A stretch of 64,000 nt of DNA from Corallium rubrum (taxonomy: Eukaryota; Cnidaria; Anthozoa; Scleralcyonacea; Coralliidae): contig OZ036006.1 in assembly GCA_964035015.1 (NCBI GenBank), positions 12,360,316-12,424,315 of the forward strand, read 5' to 3'. The notes under the pieces are model-generated. The model had not been told where the DNA came from, did no database searches, and worked only from the letters and a program-made list of their open reading frames with translations. How positions within the stretch are numbered: position 1 is the stretch's first letter; each line of letters begins with the position of its first letter. Made by a program: the position numbers and the translations under genes. Of this stretch, positions 4,161 to 23,713 are shown piece by piece.

Positions 4161-4914
4161 AGTATCGAACATGCAGCGCTGGATCGCAACTTTGCGTTGC
4201 AGATTAGCTGCATATTGAATGCACACCGAATTTGAAAACTTTGTTTGACTGCGCATTCAATGTGCAGCGCTTTGCGTAAGTGATTTCATCAATTTGTAAT
4301 GCAGACGCGCTGCAGTTTAAATGCATTTTGACTTACAGTCAAGAAAAATTACATCTGCAGCTATTCTGCAGCGCTGCCATTTCGGTACGGGCACTGCTGA
4401 CAGGAAATGTTTTGTAAACGTTGTTTGCAGGAAATGTTTTGCATCTTGCAGGAAATATATTGTCAGTTTTTTTAATCTAAATCATAGTTTAAAGATAAAT
4501 TTCCTATTCTTCAAAAAATCGAAAAGCACAATGAATCACACAATTTTGATGGGCATCACTTTTGATCGAATATCAAGTTTCATATTCGATGACTCATCTT
4601 TCTATATTCTTGCCAAACCCAGCTAGTTCGCTACTTCAAAGTATGTATAGATACTGCATTCAGATAAATTATGGTTTTGAGATACAAACTTGCAAGTCTT
4701 GTGGTATCACAACTTATAAAATTGAAAAATTCTATGAGGCAGGAAATCGTTAATTTAGTTTAGCAGGAAATATTTATTTTTGGATTTTGCTGCCAGGAAG
4801 AAAAATGCTTCATCTATGACTGATTGCATCTCTTACAGGATCAAAGTGAAAATATGTAACAAGAAAAAAAAGTACTGTAATTACTTAATACCTGACGTGT
4901 ATAAATATAATACA

Positions 4915-8223: not shown

Positions 8224-8325
8224 GTATATACAGTACTTTATGTAGGGGATTAGAGAAAAAACACAGTAGCCAAAGTCAGCAAAATACATGTATGATGAAT
8301 TCAGTTAGTACTTGCTTATATTTAG
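6837..8325 (+). other. Putative intron between zinc-ribbon exon and HECT exon
   Basis: No coding signal. It holds poly-G/poly-C stretches (7801-7862) and a (TA)n-rich microsatellite at about 8190-8230. The preferred acceptor is after 'tatatttag' at 8325, preceded by a modest pyrimidine tract; an alternative in-phase acceptor is after 'caaatcaag' at 8343. Confidence 0.4.
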
Positions 8326-10373
8326 AAATTTGTGCAAATCAAGTCAGAAAAGTTGAGGGCTCAAGCTCTGATGCCTGTCCATCTACCAGTGTGCCTATAA
8401 AATCATTTGCCAGCTATAAGCAAAGTAAAGGTAAAGAGTGGAAATCTAAAGTATCAAAGTCCAGTAATGAAGGGAAGAAAAAAGTTCAAGATGTTGTGGT
8501 TAATATAGGTCTTATGGAGTGGCATGAAAAAGAGCAGATACTCAAGGCAAGACGAGGGAAAAAAGTACCCATAAGAATACCACCAACAATAAATTACTGT
8601 ACATTGCGGGAAGAAGCTGAAAAAAACTGGAGAAACTTTCACAGTAATTTGTATGATGAGAGTCAGTTGTACCACCTTGTATACATGTATGAAGATGGAC
8701 AGAAGGCTGTGTTTCTCCCTGGTTTGAAGAAAGAATCGTTTACATTAAGCAGATATCAAGAAGAGATAGGAAAAGACTTTAAACGGATAACTCTATTCCT
8801 TTGCTCAAACCATGATTTTCAGATAGCAGAAGGTTGTTGTGATGATGAAGATCTCAGTGATTTGAAAACTGAAACTGATAACACTAGTGTTGTCTGGAAT
8901 GATATCTCTCCTAGTAACCAGAATGCTCTACTGGAAAATGATTGCCTACAGAATAATAACCCCAGCAAACGACTTAGATTCAACAGTCCAATAAGTACCT
9001 GTATAGACCTAGCAACAACTCCTACAGTGGATGAAAATGACACTTTACAAGATGATCCAAGTCAATCCAGCCAGCTTGAACTTGATCAGCAGCTTGCTAG
9101 TTATATTCAAGAAATGTATGACACCCAAGATTCTGTAGCTCATGAACAAGAGAAGAGTCCAGCTGTTAACATAACTGATTCATCTTCACTTGTAAAAGCT
9201 TTGGCTGCGAAGGTAGATGAGTTTGGCCAACTGTTCATTGTTGTCAGAAGAGGTGCCTCATTAAACAGAGTGCTTTCTATCTGGAATAGAGAAGTGAAAA
9301 AGAACCCAGCCTCAGTGAACCAGGTTGTAAGAGTCCGTTTTATCGGTGAACAGGGAATTGATTCAGGTGCCATGTCAAAAGAGTTCTTTACAATAACCCT
9401 TCCCAACATTGGCTCTGCCTTGTTCCCCAGTGGACAACCAGTGGATTCAACACTTCATGTCCAAAATGGGAACTTCAAAGCATGTGGAGAGATTGTAGCT
9501 ACAAGTCTTGCTCAAGGTGGACCCGCACCACATTTCCTTGAAGAAAGTGTATATGGTCTAATGGTGAATCCAAATGTGCCACTTCAGGAACTTGACCCTG
9601 AAAGGCATTTAACATCAACAGACAGGGTCCTGTTAAATTCTATTGGAAAGGATGTAGCTTCACACATTGACACCATAATTGAACATGGTTATACAGGGAG
9701 CATTGATGATTCTCATGTTGATGAGATTATAAAATCTGTTGTCATCAGCATTGTAACCAAGCGGTTGGTTTATCTGAAAGAGTTCATGGATGGGCTTGAT
9801 GCTTACGGCCTAGGTAGGATTATATCAACCTACCCAGAAGCTTGCAAAGCCATGTTCATGCAAGATGCCCAAAGTGCTGGTGCTGTTGATGCTAACTACT
9901 TGATTTCAATTCTACAGCCAGAATATTCAGAGCAAGGTAGCACGAGAAAAGAAATAGAAGAGTCCATGATGGATTTTCTTCAAGATTTCCTGTTTCACCT
10001 TGAAGATGAGCGAGAAGTGAATGTTTCTGGCTACGCTGAGGTTTTTGCAAGCTGTGATGATTCTAGCACAGGCATAGAAGTTTCCCAAGTAAAGGAACAG
10101 TTGCTTAATTTCCCTGATTGTACTCCTGCAGGCATTATGGGCTGGCTGACTGGCCAGAAGCACAGGCCTATCAGTGGAGAACTAGTTAAAATTACTGTGA
10201 AATTTAATCACGACTGCACTGTCCATAACCCTCAGCATCGCATCTGTTTCCCTGTTGTTGGAGCTTGTGCAAAAGAAGTCACATTTCCTGTTACTCATAT
10301 GAAAACTGCTGAAGAGTTTAATGAAGTTCTTATGATGGCCATCTGCAAAGGACAGTCTTTTGGTAAAGCATGA
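8326..10373 (+). CDS. HECT-domain E3 ubiquitin ligase, transposon cargo
   Basis: Long intact frame, about 680 residues with no internal stop. Residues are counted here from the in-frame ATG at 8292. The first 300 residues are low-complexity and acidic/Ser-rich, with a conserved 'YHLVYMYEDGQKAVFLPG'-like block. The C-terminal 370 are a HECT domain: the N-lobe signature RVRFIGEQGIDSGAMSKEFF at about 348-367, then a C-lobe ending in FPVVGAC..VTFPV, where Cys659 sits at the position of the thioester cysteine (STC in relatives). HECT ligases accept ubiquitin on this Cys and pass it to substrate. It is like the G2E3-type proteins that are multicopy in cnidarian and fish genomes. True start is most likely the zinc-ribbon exon at 6764. 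The Polinton inserted 43 bp after the stop, so the 3'UTR and poly(A) signal are displaced. Confidence 0.85.
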
Positions 10374-10416
10374 TGCATGATCCATATGCACTTTTGGTAA
10401 AGCATGATGCATGATC
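10358..10416 (+). repeat. 34-bp tandem duplication at HECT 3' end / Polinton target site
   Basis: The last codons, stop and following bases of the HECT gene (10358-10391, beginning cttttggtaaagc) are repeated at 10392. The second unit is broken by the Polinton after 'atgatc', and its remainder 'catatgca' follows the second TSD copy at 20636. Removing the Polinton and one atgatc exactly restores the second unit, which is strong evidence for the insertion boundaries. Confidence 0.85.
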
Positions 10417-10460
10417 AGTAGATAACCCCCCCCCATATACCGACGGAAGTAGTTAATATT

Positions 10461-10545
10461 CAGCGTGACTCACGCATGACTCACGCACCATGACTCACGC
10501 ATGACTCACGCATGACTCACGCATGACTCACGCCTGTGACATGTT
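10461..10545 (+). repeat. 11-bp tandem repeat near Polinton terminus (left)
   Basis: Seven or so units of 'catgactcacg' with one variant spacer. The same array is mirrored at about 20495-20582. It sits about 45 bp from the element end, where integrase or replication proteins would be expected to bind (inference). Confidence 0.75.
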
Positions 10546-10802
10546 TGGACAAGACTGGAATAATTATACTATACATGAAGTTATATACGCTCGGTGATTT
10601 CGTATTGTTGCTACTTTTCCTAAAGTGTTTTACTTGTGGAGTTTACTGTCTGCGATATAGTGTTTTCTTGGGAGATATTTTCGAAGATATTTTTGTCTGA
10701 TTTTAAGGTAAGATATTTTGCACTTATTCGTTTTATATTGCCTGACGACGTTCACTGTGTATTTTATCAGAGTTTAATATACGTTTTGTTTCATTGACAG
10801 CA

Positions 10803-13068
10803 ATGGATCTTACCGATGTAATCAGAGGTTGTACAACCGTCGAAGAAATAGAGGCGCTGGAATGGCTGTTTGATTTCGAGGAGAGGCATAAGCAAGCAGC
10901 CTTGTTTCAACGTATCATTATATTGTCGAATGCCTTGGAGCGTGATTTGGAGAACGAACGTTGTGGGATTTCTACGGTGTTAATGGATGGTTGGTCGGAC
11001 GAGCAACGCGAATCCTTCAAGCGAGATTGGAACGATGATTCGTTTTTGGCCGAGATGGACGACGGCGGTCAGGCCCCCGAACCGGCGATACCCTCGTTAA
11101 TGGATGGTTGGTCGAACGAGCAACACGAATCCTTCAGAATGGATTGGAACGATGATTCATTTATGGCCGAACTAGAGGATATTTCTGATGTCTCTGGTGA
11201 ACCGTCGATACCCGAGGTATCTATCCAGACCGGAGAAGGAAGCCGAAAACGAGCCGCTAAACCAAGTACGGAATCAATACCAAGTAAGAGATCTAAAACT
11301 GTTCCGTTATTTACGATAAAATCTGTTAAGCAAGTACGCGTGAAAAAGTTTAAGACCACGGGCCTTGATTATCGCGTTCAGTTTGGCGATTTACAAGTCC
11401 AAGGTTTGCCTGATGTCCTGAGGCAGTTACACAACGTGTTTGCAAGTCTGCTTGATCGCGTAACCGATGGTATTGCTATGCATGATCAGGTCAGGTTTAT
11501 TATGCATTCGCCTCAACTCGAATATCCCATTTTATTAGCATTTATGTCTCGTGAGAGATTAACAGTCGAGAGAATCTTGGCCGAGATCGAAAGAGTAATT
11601 CAGTCGAATGATTCGTTTAAGTTAGATGATTCGATTACCGTCAATATAATCCATGTCGAAATGCCACACGGCGGAACGGGAAGAAAGCGAAAGATTGCTA
11701 ACCTCGATAAGTATCTTACTAACAAAAGAGCCATCGTCCGAATTCAGAACAAGGACGATCTTTGTCTTAGTCGTGCCATTGTCGTAGCCAAAGCCAAAGT
11801 TGACAACGATGAACGGTACTCTCATATTTCGTATTCTCGAAGGCCGTTGCAAGGCAATCTTGCTCGTGAGTTACATCAAAATGCCGGCGTACCACTCGGA
11901 CAGTGCGGTATCGAAGAAGTGAAAAAAGTTTCAAGTCTATTTGACCGATTACCAGTTAAACATTGTCTCGAAAGAACATCTGAATGCACTTATTTACTCT
12001 GGCCCTGAGGCACCGAAGCGTATTTATCTCTACTCCCACGATAACCACTATGATGTAATTACAAGCATGCCAGCTTTCCTCGCTCGTAAGAAGTACTGTC
12101 ATACGTGTAAGAAGGGGTATGATAAAGTGGAAGACCACCTCTGTGGCGATACGTGCAAGTTATGCTACACGCAAAACTGTCCGATTACAAGCTGGGTATT
12201 TTGCAACGATTGCGCTCGATTTTTCAAGAGCCAGGAGTGTTTCGACAGGCACAAAGAAACCGTGGGCGAAAAGCGTTCAATTTGTGCATCGGTCGTAAAG
12301 TGTCAACACTGCAAACAGGTGGTGAAACGAGCTAATCAACACCCTCAGAGACATCACTGCGGTCTTGTTCGTTGTACAGTTTGTCAAGAGTACGTGGTCC
12401 CTGAAGACCACCAGTGCTATATTCAACAGGCGAAGAAAAGAAAAACCACTCGCGAAGCGCAATCGGACACGAACGATTTAGTAGATGATGAGGCGGACGT
12501 AGGGGAAGAAGCCAGCGACAACGAAGGCGAAGAAGGCGGTTATAACCAATTATTTTTCTTTGATTTTGAATGCGTGCAAGAAGGCGGCGAACACGTACCG
12601 AATTTATGCGTTGTTCACGACGAAAGCGGGCAAGAGTGGGTGTTTAGCGGCGAAAATACACGGGACGAATTTTGTGAATGGTTATTTCAAGACCACAATT
12701 CGAACAGTCTAGTGATGGCTCATAATTTCCAGGGATATGACGGGTATTTCATCCTACAATATCTCCAGGGTTACGCGTATGAAATGAACAATGGTAAAAC
12801 GTGTTGTAAAATACGAGGTATAACTTTAAATTTCCAAACATTGGAGAAAATTAATTTTAATGTTATGTGTGATCTCGTGTATCTAAATATCATGTGTGAT
12901 ATGGAAAGCACAGGTCCACCGAAAGTCGCTGTAGATATACCATTCAAAATTACTAGGGACACTCGCACGAAGCAAGTTATCACAAAACAACAACACAAAG
13001 ATTATAGGATAGTGTACAATAAACGAATAATTGTAGATAATTTCAACACCATTCCGTACGGTTACTAA
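10803..13068 (+). pseudogene. Polinton DNA polymerase B, internally deleted, frameshifted (left arm)
   Basis: Protein-primed family-B polymerase remnant. Preceded by a likely 5'UTR intron (donor AAG|GTAAG at 10708, acceptor TGACAG at 10800). The N-terminal 400 residues contain a direct duplication of a 'LMDGWS..Q.ESF' block, then a Cys/His-rich region, then exonuclease motif I (FFFDFEC, about residue 583) and motif II (AHNFQGYDGYF). The frame then jumps to a typical C-terminal tail ending in PYGY. Exo III, TPR and all palm motifs are gone, so it cannot polymerise. This copy has six A's near 11925 where the right arm has five, shifting the frame. Confidence 0.85.
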
Positions 13069-13228
13069 TTTTTGCACATGAGATCTGTAAATAAGTGTAA
13101 ATAGTTTAGAGATTTTAACTTTGTGTGCTGATAATTAATAATTTTAACTTTGTGTGCTTGTAAATAGGAAATTTAATAATATATCTTTTATTAACACTAC
13201 CAGTTGTCTTATTTTGAAGAAAAATCAT

Positions 13229-13302
13229 TGCCAGGTGTGGGATTCGAACCCACGTCTTCTGGGACTTTAAACCCAGCGCCTTAACCATTCGGCCACCCTC
13301 GC
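13229..13302 (-). tRNA. tRNA-like gene, left arm
   Basis: Mirror copy of the tRNA-like sequence at 17733-17806, identical over its length; see that entry for the structure. Here it lies on the - strand, so it is convergent with the polymerase gene, about 160 bp past the polymerase stop codon, just before the minisatellite. Confidence 0.6.
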
Positions 13303-13384
13303 GCTTACATTCAAGGTTCTATATTTTCTCTTTATAAAAAAAAATCGGATCATGGGGTTCCTTGAGGGATCAGAAAGGGTATAT

Positions 13385-14028
13385 GCCTTAGGATTCAATC
13401 TTAGGATTCAATGATTCAATGATTCAATCTTAGGATTCAATGATTCAATCTTAGGATTCAATGATTCAATCTTAGGATTCAATGATTCAATCTTAGGATT
13501 CAATGATTCAATCTTAGGATTCAATGATTCAATCTTAGGATTCAATGATTCAATCTTAGGATTCAATGATTCAATCTTAGGATTCAATGTTTCAATGATT
13601 CAGTCTTAGGATTCAATGATTCAATCTTAGGATTCAATGATTCAATCTTAGGATTCAATGATTCAATCTTAGGATTCAATGATTCAATGATTCAGTCTTA
13701 GGATTCAATGATTCAATCTTAGGATTCAATGATTCAATCTTAGGATTCAATGATTCAATCTTAGGATTCAATGATTCAATGATTCAGTCTTAGGATTCAA
13801 TGATTCAATCTTAGGATTCAATGATTCAATCTTAGGATTCAATGATTCAATCTTAGGATTCAATGATTCAATGATTCAGTCTTAGGATTCAATGATTCAA
13901 TCTTAGGATTCAATGATTCAATCTTAGGATTCAATGATTCAATCTTAGGATTCAATGATTCAGTCTTAGGATTCAATGATTCAATCTTAGGATTCAATGA
14001 TTCAGTCTTAGGATTCAATGATTCAGTC
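13385..14028 (+). repeat. 21-bp minisatellite, left arm
   Basis: About 30 units of ttaggattcaatgattcaatc and shortened forms lacking the middle block. Higher-order blocks recur in which an extra 'attcaatg' is inserted every four or five units. The array separates the polymerase/tRNA half from the ATPase half of the arm. The mirrored right array (about 17010-17655) differs slightly in unit order. Confidence 0.9.
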
Positions 14029-14029
14029 T

Positions 14030-14064
14030 TATAAAAAGCAGTTGCGTGAAAGAGTGACATCAGT
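14030..14064 (+). promoter_or_regulatory. TATA box and initiator for the ATPase gene
   Basis: TATAAAAA at 14030-14037 is followed about 30 bp later by a TCAGT initiator (14060-14064). Transcription starting there would leave the first ATG (14067) only about 5 nt from the cap, so the second ATG at 14091 is favoured. Confidence 0.6.
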
Positions 14065-14090
14065 TTATGATTGACAGTCACTGGGTGAAC

Positions 14091-14891
14091 ATGTCTTACG
14101 TTTGTGAAGTCTGCGAAAAATCATTCGCTACATCAAGTAACCGTCTACGCCATATGAGATCTTTTCATCACAAAAGGTCTATCAGTGATAGGGCAACAAC
14201 ATCTGCCCCATTTACCGCTATGACAACTACATTCACCCCTGAGAGTCAAAAAACGTACTCGATACAACTGACACATCCGTTTGGACTCTTGGTCTCTGGA
14301 GGCACCAAAAGTGGGAAAACAACTTTTGTCAAACAGTTATTGGTTTATGCTAGCATTATGATCGACCCACCTCCGGAAAACATCGTGTATTTTTATTCAG
14401 AATATCAAGATACGTTTGGCGAAATAGAAACCCTAATTCCAGGGATTCAGTTTGTCCAAGGTTTGCCCCAATCGATGTTGGATAGTATTAATCCCCAAAT
14501 AAGGAATTTGTACATCATTGACGATATGATGGGAGAGAAAGACGCAGAAATTGCTAAACTTTTTACGAAAAAATCGCACCATGGGAATCTCAGTGTAATT
14601 TATATCGTGCAAAACTTATTTCATCAAAGCAAAGATCATCGGACCATTTCCCTGAACGCCAGTTATTTATGTCTGACGAAAAACGTTCGAGATGCAAGTC
14701 AAGTGACTCATCTGGCTAAACAGTTGTATCCTAGCAACACCAAATTTTTTCAACAGGCTTATCAGATGGCGACTAAAGAGCCCTATTCCTACCTGTTTGT
14801 CGATCTCACTCCGACATGTCCCGATGAAATCCGAGTAAGATCCGGGATCTTTCCGACTGACACCCACTACGTGTACCAGCCCAGAGTATAA
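14091..14891 (+). CDS. Polinton packaging ATPase with N-terminal C2H2 finger
   Basis: A FtsK/A32-like genome-packaging ATPase, 266 residues from the ATG at 14091 (274 from 14067). Counting from 14067: a C2H2 zinc finger (C13, C16, H29, H34), Walker A GGTKSGKT at 78-85, and Walker B LYIIDD at 148-153, with hydrophobic beta-strands before each. These enzymes pump DNA into capsids in Polintons, adintoviruses and NCLDV. The gene is intact and identical in both arms although the element has no capsid genes, so it may be unconstrained now or act in trans with a helper. The stop codon overlaps the TATA box of the next gene. Confidence 0.9.
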   Translation: MSYVCEVCEKSFATSSNRLRHMRSFHHKRSISDRATTSAPFTAMTTTFTPESQKTYSIQLTHPFGLLVSGGTKSGKTTFVKQLLVYASIMIDPPPENIVYFYSEYQDTFGEIETLIPGIQFVQGLPQSMLDSINPQIRNLYIIDDMMGEKDAEIAKLFTKKSHHGNLSVIYIVQNLFHQSKDHRTISLNASYLCLTKNVRDASQVTHLAKQLYPSNTKFFQQAYQMATKEPYSYLFVDLTPTCPDEIRVRSGIFPTDTHYVYQPRV

Positions 14892-14922
14892 AAGGGGCTG
14901 TTCAGTGACAATGCGATCATTT
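14887..14922 (+). promoter_or_regulatory. TATA box and initiator for the small basic gene
   Basis: TATAAAA at 14887-14893 overlaps the ATPase stop codon (TAA 14889-14891). A TCATTT initiator lies at 14917-14922, about 30 bp downstream, and the ATG follows at 14927. TATA plus initiator spacing matches that of the ATPase gene, implying separate short transcripts for each late-type gene. Confidence 0.6.
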
Positions 14923-14926
14923 GACC

Positions 14927-15256
14927 ATGTCTGCTTGTATAAGAAGGAACTGCGATGTTTTAAAAGTATTGGCAAAGTGTAATCCTCAAGTGCGAAACGC
15001 AATTATAAAAGCTGCCGACGACGATTTATTAGAAGCCATTAGACAGTGTCTTTTGAACGTGTGGTGTGAAACAATTAAGATTACTCCGAAAACAGCAAGG
15101 AAACTAGCCCCTTATAACGATCATATTAAGTTTGTTGCTGATAAACGTCATCCAGTAGCAAAAAGAAAGAAAGTTATTCTACAAGAAGGTGAAGGTTTTT
15201 TACCGTTTCTCTTAGCTCCGGTACTTGAACAACTAGCGAGTTTTTTAACCAAATAA
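14927..15256 (+). CDS. Small basic Polinton protein (pX/core-like)
   Basis: A 109-residue protein: helical N-terminal half with acidic patch, a Lys/Arg stretch (RHPVAKRKK) and then a hydrophobic C-terminus with 'GEGFLPFLLAPVL'. Short proteins with this order, basic stretch then 'GGFLP.LL' hydrophobic tail, are recurrent in Polintons and adintoviruses, where a DNA-core or membrane-active virion role is suspected; function is not established and my match is from memory of the pattern. Both arms keep an intact copy differing at two residues (V/L and D/N). Confidence 0.6.
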   Translation: MSACIRRNCDVLKVLAKCNPQVRNAIIKAADDDLLEAIRQCLLNVWCETIKITPKTARKLAPYNDHIKFVADKRHPVAKRKKVILQEGEGFLPFLLAPVLEQLASFLTK

Positions 15257-15286
15257 TGGAACACGTCCGGAGATTGGTGTTTTCCA

Positions 15287-15560
15287 TTGATAGAGACCAT
15301 ATACACAGACGCCATCGCCACTGAAATCGAGAAATTATGCGAAGAAAACTGTTGTGGTTGTAAGATTGATCACCCCAGTCAACGCCAGCATGATTGCCTC
15401 ATGATGACCGAGGAAGAAAGATGGGAATTGTACTGCAAAGATGCCATTGCATTTGTAAATGATAAACGATTGATTTGGGACGAGTTTATTGAAGCGACAA
15501 GAGTACTGAAGATCAGGTGCCATAAAGACGCTCTTGAACGTTTAAGACATTTAGAAAACA
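15287..15560 (+). CDS. Polinton Cys-rich protein, truncated at the palindrome apex (left arm)
   Basis: The frame encodes a Cys cluster (CEENCCGCKIDHPSQ) and 'HDCLMMTEEERWELY', a combination seen in small proteins of cnidarian Polintons. It continues through the 78-bp apex as plausible protein ('WDEFIEATRVLK') and then runs into the inverted right arm, where it becomes the antisense of itself. No ATG precedes it in frame; the upstream ATG at 15256 opens a different short frame, so the start may lie on an unseen exon or be lost. Probably non-functional. Confidence 0.5.
15483..15560. other. 78-bp asymmetric apex of the palindrome
   Basis: The arms are complementary up to 15482 and from 15561 (gggacg / cgtccc). 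The 78 bp between are single-copy and read as continuation of the left-arm gene, so they come from the parent genome beyond the fold point. This is the product expected when a displaced strand folds back and primes on itself. Confidence 0.75.
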
Positions 15561-15756
15561 CGTCCCAAATCAATCGTTTATCATTTACAAATGCAATGGC
15601 ATCTTTGCAGTACAATTCCCATCTTTCTTCCTCGGTCATCATGAGGCAATCATGCTGGCGTTGACTGGGGTGATCAATCTTACAACCACAACAGTTTTCT
15701 TCGCATAATTTCTCGATTTCAGTGGCGATGGCGTCTGTGTATATGGTCTCTATCAA
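15561..15756 (-). CDS. Polinton Cys-rich protein, truncated (right arm)
   Basis: Mirror copy of the left-arm frame, carrying the same Cys cluster and HDCLMM block, reading toward the apex. After the arm boundary the frame enters the apex in antisense, so the C-terminus differs from the left copy and is artificial. Confidence 0.5.
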
Positions 15757-15786
15757 TGGAAAACACCAATCTCCGGACGTGTTCCA

Positions 15787-16116
15787 TTATTTGGTTAAAA
15801 AACTCGCTAGTTGTTCAAGTACCGGAGCTAAGAGAAACGGTAAAAAACCTTCACCTTCTTGTAGAATAACTTTCTTTCTTTTTGCTACTGGATGACGTTT
15901 ATTAGCAACAAACTTAATATGATCGTTATAAGGGGCTAGTTTCCTTGCTGTTTTCGGAGTAATCTTAATTGTTTCACACCACACGTTCAAAAGACACTGT
16001 CTAATGGCTTCTAATAAATCGTCGTCGGCAGCTTTTATAATTGCGTTTCGCAGTTGAGGATTACACTTTGCCAATACTTTTAAAACATCGCAGTTCCTTC
16101 TTATACAAGCAGACAT
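15787..16116 (-). CDS. Small basic Polinton protein (right arm)
   Basis: Intact 109-residue mirror copy of the gene at 14927-15256. It differs by a leucine in place of valine early on and by asparagine in place of aspartate in the basic region. Its TATA box again overlaps the stop codon of the neighbouring ATPase gene. Confidence 0.6.
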   Translation of the reverse strand: MSACIRRNCDVLKVLAKCNPQLRNAIIKAADDDLLEAIRQCLLNVWCETIKITPKTARKLAPYNDHIKFVANKRHPVAKRKKVILQEGEGFLPFLLAPVLEQLASFLTK

Positions 16117-16151
16117 GGTCAAATGATCGCATTGTCACTGAACAGCCCCTT

Positions 16152-16952
16152 TTATACTCTGGGCTGGTACACGTAGTGGGTGTCAGTCGGAAAGATCCCG
16201 GATCTTACTCGGATTTCATCGGGACATGTCGGAGTGAGATCGACAAACAGGTAGGAATAGGGCTCTTTAGTCGCCATCTGATAAGCCTGTTGAAAAAATT
16301 TGGTGTTGCTAGGATACAACTGTTTAGCCAGATGAGTCACTTGACTTGCATCTCGAACGTTTTTCGTCAGACATAAATAACTGGCGTTCAGGGAAATGGT
16401 CCGATGATCTTTGCTTTGATGAAATAAGTTTTGCACGATATAAATTACACTGAGATTCCCATGGTGCGATTTTTTCGTAAAAAGTTTAGCAATTTCTGCG
16501 TCTTTCTCTCCCATCATATCGTCAATGATGTACAAATTCCTTATTTGGGGATTAATACTATCCAACATCGATTGGGGCAAACCTTGGACAAACTGAATCC
16601 CTGGAATTAGGGTTTCTATTTCGCCAAACGTATCTTGATATTCTGAATAAAAATACACGATGTTTTCCGGAGGTGGGTCGATCATAATGCTAGCATAAAC
16701 CAATAACTGTTTGACAAAAGTTGTTTTCCCACTTTTGGTGCCTCCAGAGACCAAGAGTCCAAACGGATGTGTCAGTTGTATCGAGTACGTTTTTTGACTC
16801 TCAGGGGTGAATGTAGTTGTCATAGCGGTAAATGGGGCAGATGTTGTTGCCCTATCACTGATAGACCTTTTGTGATGAAAAGATCTCATATGGCGTAGAC
16901 GGTTACTTGATGTAGCGAATGATTTTTCGCAGACTTCACAAACGTAAGACAT
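16152..16952 (-). CDS. Polinton packaging ATPase (right arm)
   Basis: Intact mirror copy of the left-arm ATPase, with the C2H2 finger, Walker A GGTKSGKT and Walker B LYIIDD unchanged. The start is taken at the second ATG (16952) for the promoter-distance reason given for the left copy; an upstream in-frame ATG is at 16976. No differences from the left copy were noticed at protein level. Confidence 0.9.
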   Translation of the reverse strand: MSYVCEVCEKSFATSSNRLRHMRSFHHKRSISDRATTSAPFTAMTTTFTPESQKTYSIQLTHPFGLLVSGGTKSGKTTFVKQLLVYASIMIDPPPENIVYFYSEYQDTFGEIETLIPGIQFVQGLPQSMLDSINPQIRNLYIIDDMMGEKDAEIAKLFTKKSHHGNLSVIYIVQNLFHQSKDHRTISLNASYLCLTKNVRDASQVTHLAKQLYPSNTKFFQQAYQMATKEPYSYLFVDLTPTCPDEIRVRSGIFPTDTHYVYQPRV

Positions 16953-17009
16953 GTTCACCCAGTGACTGTCAATCATAAACTGATGTCACTCTTTCACGCA
17001 ACTGCTTTT

Positions 17010-17655
17010 TATAAGACTGAATCATTGAATCCTAAGACTGAATCATTGAATCCTAAGATTGAATCATTGAATCCTAAGACTGAATCATTGAATCCTAAGA
17101 TTGAATCATTGAATCCTAAGATTGAATCATTGAATCCTAAGATTGAATCATTGAATCCTAAGACTGAATCATTGAATCCTAAGATTGAATCATTGAATCC
17201 TAAGATTGAATCATTGAATCCTAAGATTGAATCATTGAATCCTAAGACTGAATCATTGAATCATTGAATCCTAAGATTGAATCATTGAATCCTAAGATTG
17301 AATCATTGAATCCTAAGATTGAATCATTGAATCCTAAGACTGAATCATTGAATCATTGAATCCTAAGATTGAATCATTGAATCCTAAGATTGAATCATTG
17401 AATCCTAAGATTGAATCATTGAATCCTAAGACTGAATCATTGAAACATTGAATCCTAAGATTGAATCATTGAATCCTAAGATTGAATCATTGAATCCTAA
17501 GATTGAATCATTGAATCCTAAGATTGAATCATTGAATCCTAAGATTGAATCATTGAATCCTAAGATTGAATCATTGAATCCTAAGATTGAATCATTGAAT
17601 CCTAAGATTGAATCATTGAATCATTGAATCCTAAGATTGAATCCTAAGGCATATA
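17010..17655. repeat. 21-bp minisatellite, right arm
   Basis: Mirror of the left array, here reading 'gattgaatcattgaatccta'. Unit order is nearly but not exactly the reverse complement of the left array, as expected from slippage after the palindrome formed. Confidence 0.9.
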
Positions 17656-17732
17656 CCCTTTCTGATCCCTCAAGGAACCCCATGATCCGATTTTTTTTTA
17701 TAAAGAGAAAATATAGAACCTTGAATGTAAGC

Positions 17733-17806
17733 GCGAGGGTGGCCGAATGGTTAAGGCGCTGGGTTTAAAGTCCCAGAAGACGTGGGTTCGAATCCCACAC
17801 CTGGCA
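17733..17806 (+). tRNA. tRNA-like gene (Leu/Ser-like D arm), right arm
   Basis: 74 nt. D arm GGCCGAATGGTTAAGGC; anticodon stem CTGGG/CCCAG is perfect; T arm GTGGG TTCGAAT CCCAC is perfect; variable loop is 5 nt (class I size). The anticodon loop is TTTAAAGT, 8 nt instead of 7, which would place UAA (Leu) or AAA at the anticodon. The acceptor stem pairs at only 5 of 7 positions (GCGAGGG with ACCTGGC). CCA is not encoded. A TTTTT tract follows within 5 nt, a good Pol III terminator. It may be a real but odd tRNA, a +1 frameshift-type tRNA, or a tRNA-shaped Pol III transcript. Identical in both arms. Confidence 0.6.
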
Positions 17807-17966
17807 ATGATTTTTCTTCAAAATAAGACAACTGGTAGTGTTAATAAAAGATATATTATTAAATTTCCTATTTACAAGCACACAAAGTTAAAATTATTAA
17901 TTATCAGCACACAAAGTTAAAATCTCTAAACTATTTACACTTATTTACAGATCTCATGTGCAAAAA

Positions 17967-20231
17967 TTAGTAACCGTACGGAATGGTGTTGAAATTATCT
18001 ACAATTATTCGTTTATTGTACACTATCCTATAATCTTTGTGTTGTTGTTTTGTGATAACTTGCTTCGTGCGAGTGTCCCTAGTAATTTTGAATGGTATAT
18101 CTACAGCGACTTTCGGTGGACCTGTGCTTTCCATATCACACATGATATTTAGATACACGAGATCACACATAACATTAAAATTAATTTTCTCCAATGTTTG
18201 GAAATTTAAAGTTATACCTCGTATTTTACAACACGTTTTACCATTGTTCATTTCATACGCGTAACCCTGGAGATATTGTAGGATGAAATACCCGTCATAT
18301 CCCTGGAAATTATGAGCCATCACTAGACTGTTCGAATTGTGGTCTTGAAATAACCATTCACAAAATTCGTCCCGTGTATTTTCGCCGCTAAACACCCACT
18401 CTTGCCCGCTTTCGTCGTGAACAACGCATAAATTCGGTACGTGTTCGCCGCCTTCTTGCACGCATTCAAAATCAAAGAAAAATAATTGGTTATAACCGCC
18501 TTCTTCGCCTTCGTTGTCGCTGGCTTCTTCCCCTACGTCCGCCTCATCATCTACTAAATCGTTCGTGTCCGATTGCGCTTCGCGAGTGGTTTTTCTTTTC
18601 TTCGCCTGTTGAATATAGCACTGGTGGTCTTCAGGGACCACGTACTCTTGACAAACTGTACAACGAACAAGACCGCAGTGATGTCTCTGAGGGTGTTGAT
18701 TAGCTCGTTTCACCACCTGTTTGCAGTGTTGACACTTTACGACCGATGCACAAATTGAACGCTTTTCGCCCACGGTTTCTTTGTGCCTGTCGAAACACTC
18801 CTGGCTCTTGAAAAATCGAGCGCAATCGTTGCAAAATACCCAGCTTGTAATCGGACAGTTTTGCGTGTAGCATAACTTGCACGTATCGCCACAGAGGTGG
18901 TCTTCCACTTTATCATACCCCTTCTTACACGTATGACAGTACTTCTTACGAGCGAGGAAAGCTGGCATGCTTGTAATTACATCATAGTGGTTATCGTGGG
19001 AGTAGAGATAAATACGCTTCGGTGCCTCAGGGCCAGAGTAAATAAGTGCATTCAGATGTTCTTTCGAGACAATGTTTAACTGGTAATCGGTCAAATAGAC
19101 TTGAAACTTTTTCACTTCTTCGATACCGCACTGTCCGAGTGGTACGCCGGCATTTTGATGTAACTCACGAGCAAGATTGCCTTGCAACGGCCTTCGAGAA
19201 TACGAAATATGAGAGTACCGTTCATCGTTGTCAACTTTGGCTTTGGCTACGACAATGGCACGACTAAGACAAAGATCGTCCTTGTTCTGAATTCGGACGA
19301 TGGCTCTTTTGTTAGTAAGATACTTATCGAGGTTAGCAATCTTTCGCTTTCTTCCCGTTCCGCCGTGTGGCATTTCGACATGGATTATATTGACGGTAAT
19401 CGAATCATCTAACTTAAACGAATCATTCGACTGAATTACTCTTTCGATCTCGGCCAAGATTCTCTCGACTGTTAATCTCTCACGAGACATAAATGCTAAT
19501 GAAATGGGATATTCGAGTTGAGGCGAATGCATAATAAACCTGACCTGATCATGCATAGCAATACCATCGGTTACGCGATCAAGCAGACTTGCAAACACGT
19601 TGTGTAACTGCCTCAGGACATCAGGCAAACCTTGGACTTGTAAATCGCCAAACTGAACGCGATAATCAAGGCCCGTGGTCTTAAACTTTTTCACGCGTAC
19701 TTGCTTAACAGATTTTATCGTAAATAACGGAACAGTTTTAGATCTCTTACTTGGTATTGATTCCGTACTTGGTTTAGCGGCTCGTTTTCGGCTTCCTTCT
19801 CCGGTCTGGATAGATACCTCGGGTATCGACGGTTCACCAGAGACATCAGAAATATCCTCTAGTTCGGCCATAAATGAATCATCGTTCCAATCCATTCTGA
19901 AGGATTCGTGTTGCTCGTTCGACCAACCATCCATTAACGAGGGTATCGCCGGTTCGGGGGCCTGACCGCCGTCGTCCATCTCGGCCAAAAACGAATCATC
20001 GTTCCAATCTCGCTTGAAGGATTCGCGTTGCTCGTCCGACCAACCATCCATTAACACCGTAGAAATCCCACAACGTTCGTTCTCCAAATCACGCTCCAAG
20101 GCATTCGACAATATAATGATACGTTGAAACAAGGCTGCTTGCTTATGCCTCTCCTCGAAATCAAACAGCCATTCCAGCGCCTCTATTTCTTCGACGGTTG
20201 TACAACCTCTGATTACATCGGTAAGATCCAT
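17967..20231 (-). CDS. Polinton DNA polymerase B, internally deleted but open (right arm)
   Basis: 754 residues in one open frame from the ATG at 20231. Duplicated 'LMDGWS' blocks lie near residues 60 and 100; a basic NLS-like stretch (GSRKRAAK, PSKRSK) near 145-165; Cys/His-rich putative zinc region at about 430-560; exonuclease motifs I (DFE) and II (NFQGYD) at about 583 and 640. Then comes an in-frame jump to the thumb-end tail with 'YRIVYNKR' and PYGY. Full Polinton polymerases are over 1,000 residues; exo III, TPR insertions and palm motifs A-C are absent. That both ends survive in frame could be chance or selection for a truncated product, for instance a terminal-protein/exonuclease fragment. 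Confidence 0.85.
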   Translation of the reverse strand: MDLTDVIRGCTTVEEIEALEWLFDFEERHKQAALFQRIIILSNALERDLENERCGISTVLMDGWSDEQRESFKRDWNDDSFLAEMDDGGQAPEPAIPSLMDGWSNEQHESFRMDWNDDSFMAELEDISDVSGEPSIPEVSIQTGEGSRKRAAKPSTESIPSKRSKTVPLFTIKSVKQVRVKKFKTTGLDYRVQFGDLQVQGLPDVLRQLHNVFASLLDRVTDGIAMHDQVRFIMHSPQLEYPISLAFMSRERLTVERILAEIERVIQSNDSFKLDDSITVNIIHVEMPHGGTGRKRKIANLDKYLTNKRAIVRIQNKDDLCLSRAIVVAKAKVDNDERYSHISYSRRPLQGNLARELHQNAGVPLGQCGIEEVKKFQVYLTDYQLNIVSKEHLNALIYSGPEAPKRIYLYSHDNHYDVITSMPAFLARKKYCHTCKKGYDKVEDHLCGDTCKLCYTQNCPITSWVFCNDCARFFKSQECFDRHKETVGEKRSICASVVKCQHCKQVVKRANQHPQRHHCGLVRCTVCQEYVVPEDHQCYIQQAKKRKTTREAQSDTNDLVDDEADVGEEASDNEGEEGGYNQLFFFDFECVQEGGEHVPNLCVVHDESGQEWVFSGENTRDEFCEWLFQDHNSNSLVMAHNFQGYDGYFILQYLQGYAYEMNNGKTCCKIRGITLNFQTLEKINFNVMCDLVYLNIMCDMESTGPPKVAVDIPFKITRDTRTKQVITKQQHKDYRIVYNKRIIVDNFNTIPYGY

Positions 20232-20494
20232 TGCTGTCAATGAAACAAAACGTATATTAAACTCTGATAAAATACACAGTGAACGTCGTCAGGCAATATA
20301 AAACGAATAAGTGCAAAATATCTTACCTTAAAATCAGACAAAAATATCTTCGAAAATATCTCCCAAGAAAACACTATATCGCAGACAGTAAACTCCACAA
20401 GTAAAACACTTTAGGAAAAGTAGCAACAATACGAAATCACCGAGCGTATATAACTTCATGTATAGTATAATTATTCCAGTCTTGTCCAAACATG

Positions 20495-20582
20495 TCACAG
20501 GCGTGAGTCATGCGTGAGTCATGCGTGAGTCATGCGTGAGTCATGCGTGAGTCATGGTGCGTGAGTCATGCGTGAGTCACGC
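20495..20582 (-). repeat. 11-bp tandem repeat near Polinton terminus (right)
   Basis: Mirror of 10461-10545: units of 'cgtgagtcatg', about seven copies, close to the right end of the element. Confidence 0.75.
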
Positions 20583-20635
20583 TGAATATTAACTACTTCC
20601 GTCGGTATATGGGGGGGGGGTTATCTACTATGATC

Positions 20636-22213: not shown

Positions 22214-23434
22214 TTAGACACCATTTTCAGCTACCACCATAAGTCTTCGGTAGAGTCTGTCTGCTTCTTGCCAGTCATTTGGCAGGTTGATTCCAAGAGT
22301 TCTTCTGGCATAATTAAAATAATCTTGATATTCATTAACATTATTCACCTGAACTATGTGTTCATACATATAATCAATTTCTGATTGGGGAACATTGAGC
22401 AGAAGGTTTCCAACAGCACCATGATGCTCAGGTAAAAAGAACAGTGAATCTGGTCGGCCAGGTACTGTATTGTACCTGGATTTCCTAATTCTATGGCTGT
22501 TCCAGTGCTCTTTAACAACATCCAGGTCCCCCTGAACAATCTGTGAGAAACAATACCAGAGGCATTCCATGCTTAGCTCAGAAGAAGTGTCTAAGGCACC
22601 CTCAGACTCCAAATCTTTGAAAAAATTTCTCAAACCATGCCGACCTACTTCGAGCATAAAATGACCACCACCCTTCAATTCTCTGGTTTCGAGGAGATGA
22701 TACACAACGATGAGCATCAGGATTATCTCTGAAGTAACACTGCATTGATGCTGCCAATCCATTTTCAGTACCCAGATCTGTAATCAACTGTATAGGACAT
22801 CCTTTAAGTTCATTAACAGTATTCAAGAAATATACTGCAATGTTGTCTGGTGAATTGTTGGAGCGGGTCAATTTAAGCCACAAAATTTTTCTACTAAAGC
22901 CATCAATGGCTCCATGTATTGGAAAGCCAAATGGTTTCAGTTTGTCATACCCATCCATGTGCCAAGAATGATTTGGACCTGGATTACTATATGACCTTCT
23001 CTTTAACCGGTGGGCTTTCCTCAGCTTGGTACCTTCAGGATCTAACTCTTTTAGCATATCTTGTACAATTATACGTGGAACATGCAATCCTTCAATCTCT
23101 AACATGTGCCAGACTGACCTGTAGCCCCCACATGATCCAGGACCATTAATAATTTCACTCACACGTTGTCTAACCATCTCTATAATGTTGGCAGAATCAT
23201 CATTGTTCAAGAACCCTCTTCTACTAAGTCCATATGCTTTCAACCGTCTCAAGAGCGTACTGTAACTCATTTCTAGTTTATGGCGATTAGCAAGCAGAAG
23301 AATAATTTCTTCATAACTAAAGCCACGTTGAAAGTAATACTTGATAATAGACTGTTGTTCATCAACCTCAATATCACTACTTGAATCTTCACTGCTTGAA
23401 TCGCCATAGCTTGTATCTTGATGTTCACTTAAGT
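22214..23434 (-). pseudogene. DDE transposase (integrase-like), main exon, one frameshift
   Basis: Exon from an acceptor 'ttgctatag' (first base 23434) to the TAA at 22214-22216, about 406 codons. An N-terminal acidic Ser/Asp stretch is followed by a helix-turn-helix-like region (YEEIILLLANRHKL...LLRRLKAYGLSRRG) and an rve-type catalytic core: D in WHMDGYDKL, D in ITDLGTEN, E in RIEGWW, spaced D-33-E. Around 22615-22635, in a run of T's and A's, the frame changes: the upstream frame stops while the next continues with the expected 'NFFKDLESEG' and 'MECLWYCFS' region. One base lost or gained explains it; it may be a sequencing error or a real lesion. Confidence 0.8.
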
Positions 23435-23713
23435 CTATAGCAATTTGAAAAGTGACAGAAACAATGTCAAAAGTGGTTAAAGAGGTATGAACTATCATGT
23501 AAAGTGCTGAGACACCAATGAGGCAACAATAAGGCTACTTAAGTACAGTAATTCTATATTTTCCCAACATGATAATACTTTAACACGGTGACTATTATTG
23601 TAAGAGAAGATAAAGAGAGAGCAATAAATTGTTTGACTATTAACAATGGCAAGAAAAATATTTTAGAGAACAAGTCCCCTTGGCCTGGCAGTTGAAGAAA
23701 GGAAAATTAATAA

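Follow-up and report, generated by a model that had tools for sequence, protein, structure and literature searches.

How does a transposable element come to consist almost entirely of one sequence and its own reverse complement? The question is raised by a 10,213-bp element at 10417-20629 of a 64,000-nt stretch of Corallium rubrum DNA (assembly GCA_964035015.1, contig OZ036006.1, positions 12,360,316-12,424,315), hereafter the window, to whose positions coordinates refer unless another locus is named. The element is made up of two inverted arms joined by a 78-bp loop, and we consider it probable that it is a palindromic, non-autonomous Polinton, formed by fold-back during protein-primed copying into a palindrome with two ends and inserted by the integrase of a helper. 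Its outline and insertion site, read from the sequence, are:

10417-15482, plus strand, left arm of the palindrome, 5066 bp
15483-15560, plus strand, unpaired loop, 78 bp
15561-20629, minus strand, right arm of the palindrome, 5069 bp
10411-10416, no strand, left target site duplication (TSD), ATGATC
20630-20635, no strand, right TSD, ATGATC
10357-10390, no strand, first copy of a 34-bp host tandem unit

The two arms differ by three substitutions (11533/19501, 14990/16053, 15140/15903) and four indels, namely a single C of the terminal C run, one unit of the 11-bp repeats, one A at 11922 and 8 bp in a minisatellite, and the 342 bp of the stem nearest the loop are perfectly paired. The length of the match alone excludes a chance origin of the inverted repeat. 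The element runs from AGTAGATAAC to GTTATCTACT, the second end being the complement of the first; it has terminal inverted repeats with AG...CT ends, and the repeat is the whole arm. A sequence-only reading of this DNA had described AG...CT termini, a 6-bp TSD and near-identical inverted arms, all of which were confirmed by a recount of the window sequence. It had also claimed an exact restoration of the empty site, and when the flanks were joined without the element the second 34-bp host unit was indeed regained letter for letter. The proposed integration with a 6-bp duplication, the TSD length given for Polintons in the consulted part of PMC8097293, is borne out by ATGATC on both sides.

The turn of the palindrome is marked by a 4-bp inverted match, GACG (15479-15482) against CGTC (15561-15564). 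A fragment of a gene that we call APEX (APEX, YEEM and pX are labels coined in this analysis) lies next to the turn, and protein relatives of APEX, such as P0121 (88% identity covering 71% of the query), can be aligned in the left-arm frame through the loop to ENTS. The right-arm reading of the loop resembles no APEX relative there, as judged alongside the left-frame alignments and without a search of its own. A genomic copy in C1 (L014) carries window 15281-15560 at 98.9% identity and matches the window through ACACGTC before diverging, while the window after CGTC switches to the complement of its left arm. Because both the APEX relatives and the C1 copy continue left-arm sequence through the loop, we take the loop to be parental DNA read from the left, which confirms the earlier suggestion that it prolongs the left-arm gene and supports a fold-back origin with a loop derived from the left strand.

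Full-length elements of the expected parental type were found when the window's own assembly (474 Mb, 312 contigs) was searched. Two are non-palindromic relatives, C82 (13.28 kb, TSD CATACC), with polB, an integrase and an A32-like ATPase, and C13 at 9.6 Mb (13.2 kb, TSD TATATC), with an integrase, an ATPase and polB. A third, C310 (14.4 kb, TSD GATAAT), has ends with only ~120 bp in common, and full-length relatives thus span 13.2-14.4 kb. The C82 integrase matches Pfam rve together with a chromodomain and its polB gene matches PF03175 (7.9e-45); no Pfam match was found for the proteins of further C82 genes, which from their position we take to be capsid and protease. Relative to C82, the substitutions in the window element number 0 (left arm) and 2 (right arm) over 1230 bp around the ATPase, and 7 and 6, respectively, over 2050 bp of polB. 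The window element has its ends and sequence in common with full-length elements of the same genome, in which at least 70 integrase matches at 96-100% identity are present, of which 63 contain no stop. Sixteen matches belong to a second integrase family, whose identity to the C82 integrase is 58-59%.

Reading inward from its end, each arm of the window element holds a remnant of polB, then a tRNA-like gene, the 21-bp minisatellite, the packaging ATPase gene, pX and lastly the APEX fragment, with the following features:

10466-10533, no strand, subterminal 11-bp tandem repeats of the left arm, one unit fewer than the right
20501-20579, no strand, subterminal 11-bp tandem repeats of the right arm
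10746-13068, plus strand, polB remnant of the left arm, open frames 10746-12008 and 11923-13068, the reading frame being interrupted near 11922 by one additional A
17967-20288, minus strand, polB remnant of the right arm, a single open frame of 773 amino acids
12767-12771, plus strand, deletion junction within polB, 2054 bp of full-length C82 gone and 3 extra bases
13229-13302, minus strand, tRNA-like gene of the left arm, carried by the element
17733-17806, plus strand, tRNA-like gene of the right arm, carried by the element
13392-14031, no strand, 21-bp minisatellite of the left arm
17012-17643, no strand, 21-bp minisatellite of the right arm
14058-14891, plus strand, packaging ATPase (Pox_A32) of the left arm, 277 amino acids with an N-terminal C2H2 finger
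16152-16985, minus strand, packaging ATPase of the right arm, the same gene
14909-15256, plus strand, pX of the left arm, a protein of 115 amino acids
15787-16134, minus strand, pX of the right arm
15281-15286, plus strand, jump junction, C82-type sequence to its left and the end-proximal APEX gene to its right, ~1 bp overlap
15287-15560, plus strand, APEX gene fragment continuing into the loop, recognised by protein and genomic relatives

The polB remnant fuses the N-terminal region and exonuclease motif straight to the C-terminal tail, with the catalytic core deleted, and since this deletion is common to both window arms it either preceded the mirroring or was copied across later. Named relatives of the window polB include sequences from Dendronephthya, Paramuricea and Exaiptasia. 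The packaging ATPase matches Pox_A32 (5.5e-06) and is found in both arms, as the claim of two packaging genes required. Neither the C82 integrase nor the putative C82 capsid and protease proteins had a tblastn match within 10417-20629 at E 1e-3. The APEX gene, which adjoins the element end in other elements, sits internally in the window arm, past the jump at 15281-15286. The assignment to a Polinton derivative is borne out by the 6-bp TSD, the AG...CT ends, the packaging ATPase and the full-length relatives in the genome; the description of the arms as half-genomes fails, since an arm that lacks the polB core and contains a jump is not one half of the parent. The tRNA-like gene, which has an unusual anticodon loop, occupies the same place between polB and minisatellite in full-length C82 (L013:438-511) and in the two arms of C12 (L061:596-669 and 1522-1595).

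The window element has company. An end-similarity search of the genome was made (best 40 of 499 candidates), and elements were followed inward from a subset of these and from an earlier genome search, by which 13 elements that are palindromic or have long inverted arms were read in sequence (window, C18, C20, C30, C13:16.19, C8:7.08, C1:16.15, C25:14.1, C8:47.7, C8:16.6, C12, C28 and C8:8.29; C12, C25:14.1, C1 and C28 in part). These mirror elements, known here from the genome assembly alone, answer the earlier proposal to look for further palindromic Polintons. A perfect 6-bp TSD was present in nine of the 13, window included, in a count for which the left ends of C1 and C28 lay outside the sequence examined, and when an additional AGT is assigned to its left end, C8:47.7 has a TSD of five out of six bases. 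In eight (C1, C25:14.1, C18, C20, C30, C13:16.19, C8:47.7, C12) the turn lies inside or between tandem arrays, that of C12 inside an array of the window's own 21-bp minisatellite unit, and the other five have loops of 78 bp (window), ~114 bp (C8:16.6), 1.14 kb (C8:8.29), 1.54 kb (C28) and 1.68 kb (C8:7.08). When idealised 120-nt single strands were folded, a 30-bp unit and a GC-rich unit were predicted to lie 12 and 7 standard deviations (s.d.), respectively, below shuffled sequences; the GAG-type turn unit consists of A and G only and is therefore unable to self-pair.

No integrase or capsid gene was seen in the examined parts of the 13 mirror elements, apart from integrase-like stretches of 19-23 amino acids in three elements of one family (E 5e-5 to 6e-4, with C82 genes at a weaker threshold), which are probably scars of a lost integrase-to-protease block:

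L014:5975-6043, integrase-like stretch in C1
L015:4939-5001, integrase-like stretch in C8:7.08
L059:1720-1776 and 4718-4774, integrase-like stretches in both arms of C25:14.1

The C8:16.6 palindrome turns ~45 codons into a C2H2-finger ATPase gene (L057:2930-3090; the gene was recognised by eye), and with only these first ~45 codons it rules out the notion that every palindrome keeps an ATPase gene. In the C1 mirror element (C1:16134400-16153778; L022, L014) the left arm is split by ~10 kb of other DNA. At C56:4548200-4553300 (L017), outside the 13, an N run adjoins another element end.

We also took a census of the whole genome by coordinates, counting the orientation of neighbouring gene rows 1.5-15 kb apart, since a mirrored end must place its neighbouring gene in convergent pairs. 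APEX gave 36 convergent, 0 divergent and 1 + 1 same-strand pairs (136 loci), YEEM 49 convergent, 1 divergent and 0 + 0 same-strand pairs (150 loci), and the polB N-terminus 11 convergent pairs with 0 in all other orientations (57 loci). When strands were shuffled among loci for APEX and YEEM (2000 shuffles), convergent pairs averaged 9.5 with a maximum of 18 for APEX and 12.7 with a maximum of 25 for YEEM. The controls, the integrase (113 loci) and the putative capsid gene (94 loci), each gave one convergent pair and no others; among the matches listed, these sole pairs lie at C20:3481327-3484454 and C30:408884-414367, respectively. The paired loci amount to at least 85 mirrored at the integrase-side end and at least 11 at the polB end, at least 96 in all. 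Seven of the 85 (C30, C18, C20, C13:16.19, C8:16.6, C8:48.57, C8:8.29) and two of the 11 (window, C12) were read in sequence, and all nine have inverted arms; 78 and nine, respectively, are known by coordinates only. None of the 22 polB loci within the 11 pairs has an integrase in the ordinary layout, which is present at 25 of the 35 unpaired polB loci, and none has the putative capsid gene within 12 kb. Because the searches score best candidates only, the pair counts are lower bounds from which no share of all Polintons can be derived, and the idea that mirror elements form the majority was ruled out (the end set is the best 40 of 499, beside the 70 integrase matches given above). About 100 mirror copies thus appear to be present in one genome assembly, and the window example is not a lone curiosity. 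In YEEM, 17 rows (64-81% identity) list the same set of stops (2 TGA, 1 TAG, 2 TAA), and several of these rows belong to convergent pairs, a pattern that would fit the amplification in trans of a dead version of the gene.

At least one mirror form has also moved as such. C18 and C20 are 99.6% identical over 4.96 kb and have different TSDs (GTTGTT and GCTTGC), and a 33-bp stretch is found in the left arm of C18 and the right arm of C20 and is absent from the C18 right and C20 left arms. This arm difference in flipped orientation indicates that one mirror form was copied and inserted twice; on the simplest reading, the arms would already have diverged before copies of the palindrome went into two sites, each in the orientation opposite to the other. 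For the C18/C20 form, the 33-bp difference and the different TSDs indicate multiplication after it had arisen. In six elements (window, C18, C20, C30, C8:7.08, C1) the arms differ by 0-4 substitutions over the 1.2-2.2 kb compared, against 52-56 in ~2.15 kb between C30 and C18/C20 and 24-28 in 1.9 kb between C8 and C1. Such near-identical arms reflect either recent mirroring or upkeep by repeated fold-back or gene conversion.

How could such elements form? In the reading that we favour, the 3' end under synthesis would turn back on itself while a Polinton is being copied by protein-primed strand displacement, in the window at a 4-bp inverted match with a 78-nt loop, elsewhere often within a tandem array. 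The folded end would then copy its own strand, or the displaced strand, back to the protein-capped starting end, and the product would be a linear DNA with two identical, genuine ends. An integrase supplied in trans by a full-length element would insert this product with a 6-bp host duplication, and palindromic molecules could be recopied, as with the mirror form inserted twice. This mechanism of replication is our inference, drawn from the geometry and from the family to which the polymerase belongs; integration in trans and the choice of template strand are inferred too. A Polinton-derived polymerase has strong strand displacement activity, according to the consulted part of PMC3511435. The fold-back model fits the data because of the paired ends, the short matches, the arrays at many turns, the TSDs and the lack of integrase genes.

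Several observations weigh against this model. Taken alone, an inverted match of 4 bp around a 78-nt loop is weak evidence, since such a match is often expected by chance; the 21-bp unit folds only ~2 s.d. better than shuffles, and the 11-bp array at the C8:47.7 turn does not self-fold at all (0 kcal/mol, the same as shuffles). No TSD is visible at C8:16.6. Arms are less alike in C13:16.19 (12 mismatches in 2254), C28 (12 in 1757) and C8:8.29 (25 in 1069), the last of which may simply be older. The integrase-side mirror elements lack the integrase-to-protease block, and a second event is needed beyond fold-back. Finally, a further element, C8:48.57 (C8:48566500-48574400; L055, L030, L052), has no direct TSD and its inverted arms extend into ~1.1 kb of inverted flanking minisatellite, which makes it either a post-integration rearrangement or an assembly error.

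The main rival is breakage and fold-back, comparable to the formation of Tetrahymena rDNA palindromes, in which Polinton DNA, free or excised, suffers a double-strand break, resection follows, the 3' strand pairs with itself through a short inverted repeat, fill-in yields a half molecule capped by a hairpin, and replication opens this into a palindrome. This would predict the same short inverted match, loop and symmetric ends, and breaks within hairpin-forming arrays are plausible; it requires breaks of which the data hold no sign, and the two kinds of fold-back are not cleanly separated by the data either. We regard breakage as an unlikely but serious origin. An assembly artefact, whether from chimeric or inverted reads or from collapse via shared terminal repeats, might show inverted flanks of the kind seen at C8:48.57, but it is very improbable for the elements as a whole, given that nine of 13 lie between unique flanks and have matching 6-bp TSDs, and given the definite polarity of the unpaired loops, the arm-specific differences, one of them common to two insertions in opposite orientation, and the orientation bias over 96 pairs against one pair each for the integrase and capsid genes. 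Duplication after integration, or recombination between adjacent inverted elements, can be given just as little credence, for although C8:48.57 looks so and the C8:8.29 arms (95.5% alike over 1.07 kb) are no closer than some separate elements, the TSDs flank the entire palindrome in nine of 13, the arms of six elements compared are far closer to each other than to other elements, and the C18/C20 pair shows a palindrome moving as a unit.

Whether the integrase-side mirror elements have a life of their own is a separate question. One tentative possibility, which we hold to be rather doubtful, is that they are long-lived palindromic Polinton satellites without an integrase, capsid or polymerase gene, whose own ATPase is under purifying selection, perhaps kept to claim the helper's capsid, and whose arms evolve in concert, a round of replication folding back and rebuilding one arm from the other. 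A 454-amino-acid relative of the ATPase has at least 93 copies in the genome (the best 93 of 2215 candidates, to which the following counts also refer), 84 of the 93 without a stop. Its copy number rules out a fusion unique to the derivatives. These copies form 15 divergent neighbour pairs and none of other orientation, and within 12 kb of them lie a C82-type integrase in one of 93 and a C82-type putative capsid gene or polB N-terminus in none. The ratio of nonsynonymous to synonymous substitution rates (dN/dS) of the ATPase, compared between elements without a visible integrase gene, was 0.15-0.30 among C30, C18, C13:16.19 and the atypical C8:48.57, with dS up to 0.50, and 0.16 for C8 versus C1. 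Silent changes exceeded replacements by 12:5 for C30-C18 and 16:7 for C30-C13:16.19 (P 5e-5, neutral simulation) and by 5:4 for C18-C13:16.19 (P 0.058). Most silent changes in the C30 comparisons fall between codons 133 and 177, a cluster suggestive of a tract converted by a diverged copy, and the case for purifying selection on mirror elements is weakened by this clustering. The list of 454-amino-acid ATPases also favours intact copies, and the true home of this ATPase could be elements whose helper genes are more divergent.

Around the window element, a HECT-domain-like open reading frame (ORF; 8292-10373) stops 43 bp short of the insertion, and its named database relatives are from anthozoan cnidarians, except for one bacterial metagenome-assembled genome, which makes an anthozoan host probable provided that this ORF is not mobile DNA. 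Two overlapping ORFs at 22214-23498 match an integrase core domain (rva_4) and belong to another mobile element 1.6 kb from the palindrome. No relative of the window element was found in the IMG/VR contigs scanned. A scan of bacterial and archaeal genome contigs gave a distant Polinton-type polB (27% identity) on a scaffold of the Solemya velum gill symbiont (L001, 3.8 kb), possibly host contamination.

The stage of free, protein-primed linear DNA at which Polintons are believed to replicate is difficult to observe. By-products expected of such replication include palindromes that arise by fold-back and have genuine ends, and as their turn points can be read, mirror elements make the replication model testable from sequence with regard to pause sites, starting end and frequency; they also raise the question of Polinton satellites. 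If our reading is true, a replication accident known from a few viruses would here be seen as a common form that is inherited. Annotation that relies on repeats can throw such elements out, and one Polinton-like virus pipeline, as described in the consulted part of PMC12220804, kept only elements whose repeats were 100 bp-8 kb long and lay 6-80 kb apart. No description of palindromic Polintons was found among the titles and abstract openings listed from the open-licence literature, so reports may still exist in print, and "Palindrom" occurs 0 times in the main text, as consulted, of PMC8097293, PMC12220804, PMC10120064 and PMC2836005.

The kinds behind the mirror elements are known ones, non-autonomous Polintons on the one hand and palindromic genomes of protein-primed replicons on the other; what is new, on our best reading, is that palindromic derivatives form a recurrent, mobile, integrated class in one animal genome. 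The window element resembles Polinton/Maverick elements (polintoviruses, adintoviruses) in its 6-bp TSD and AG-starting inverted termini, and its relative C82 has their polB, rve integrase with chromodomain and A32-like ATPase; it differs in having no integrase or capsid match, in its deleted polB core and in being, all but the loop, one inverted repeat. Two-ended palindromes of protein-primed replicons are found among the subgenomic DNAs of phage phi29 and among adenovirus genomes that are symmetric or incomplete; these likewise have two ends and turn at short inverted repeats. As in defective-interfering genomes of such replicons, one genome end is present as a palindrome in the window element and the turn is small and asymmetric, but the phi29 and adenovirus palindromes are extrachromosomal, whereas the Polinton mirror forms are chromosomal, with TSDs, and at least one was inserted twice. 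Foldback elements and miniature inverted-repeat transposable elements with long terminal inverted repeats also have long inverted arms and are mobilised in trans; unlike these, the window element has Polinton genes in its arms together with the termini of a protein-primed replicon, and full-length relatives are present in the same genome. Finally, the copy-back defective genomes of RNA viruses (as described in the consulted part of PMC11077978) differ from the window element in being RNA and non-integrated, and share with it a polymerase that turns back and the complementary ends that result.

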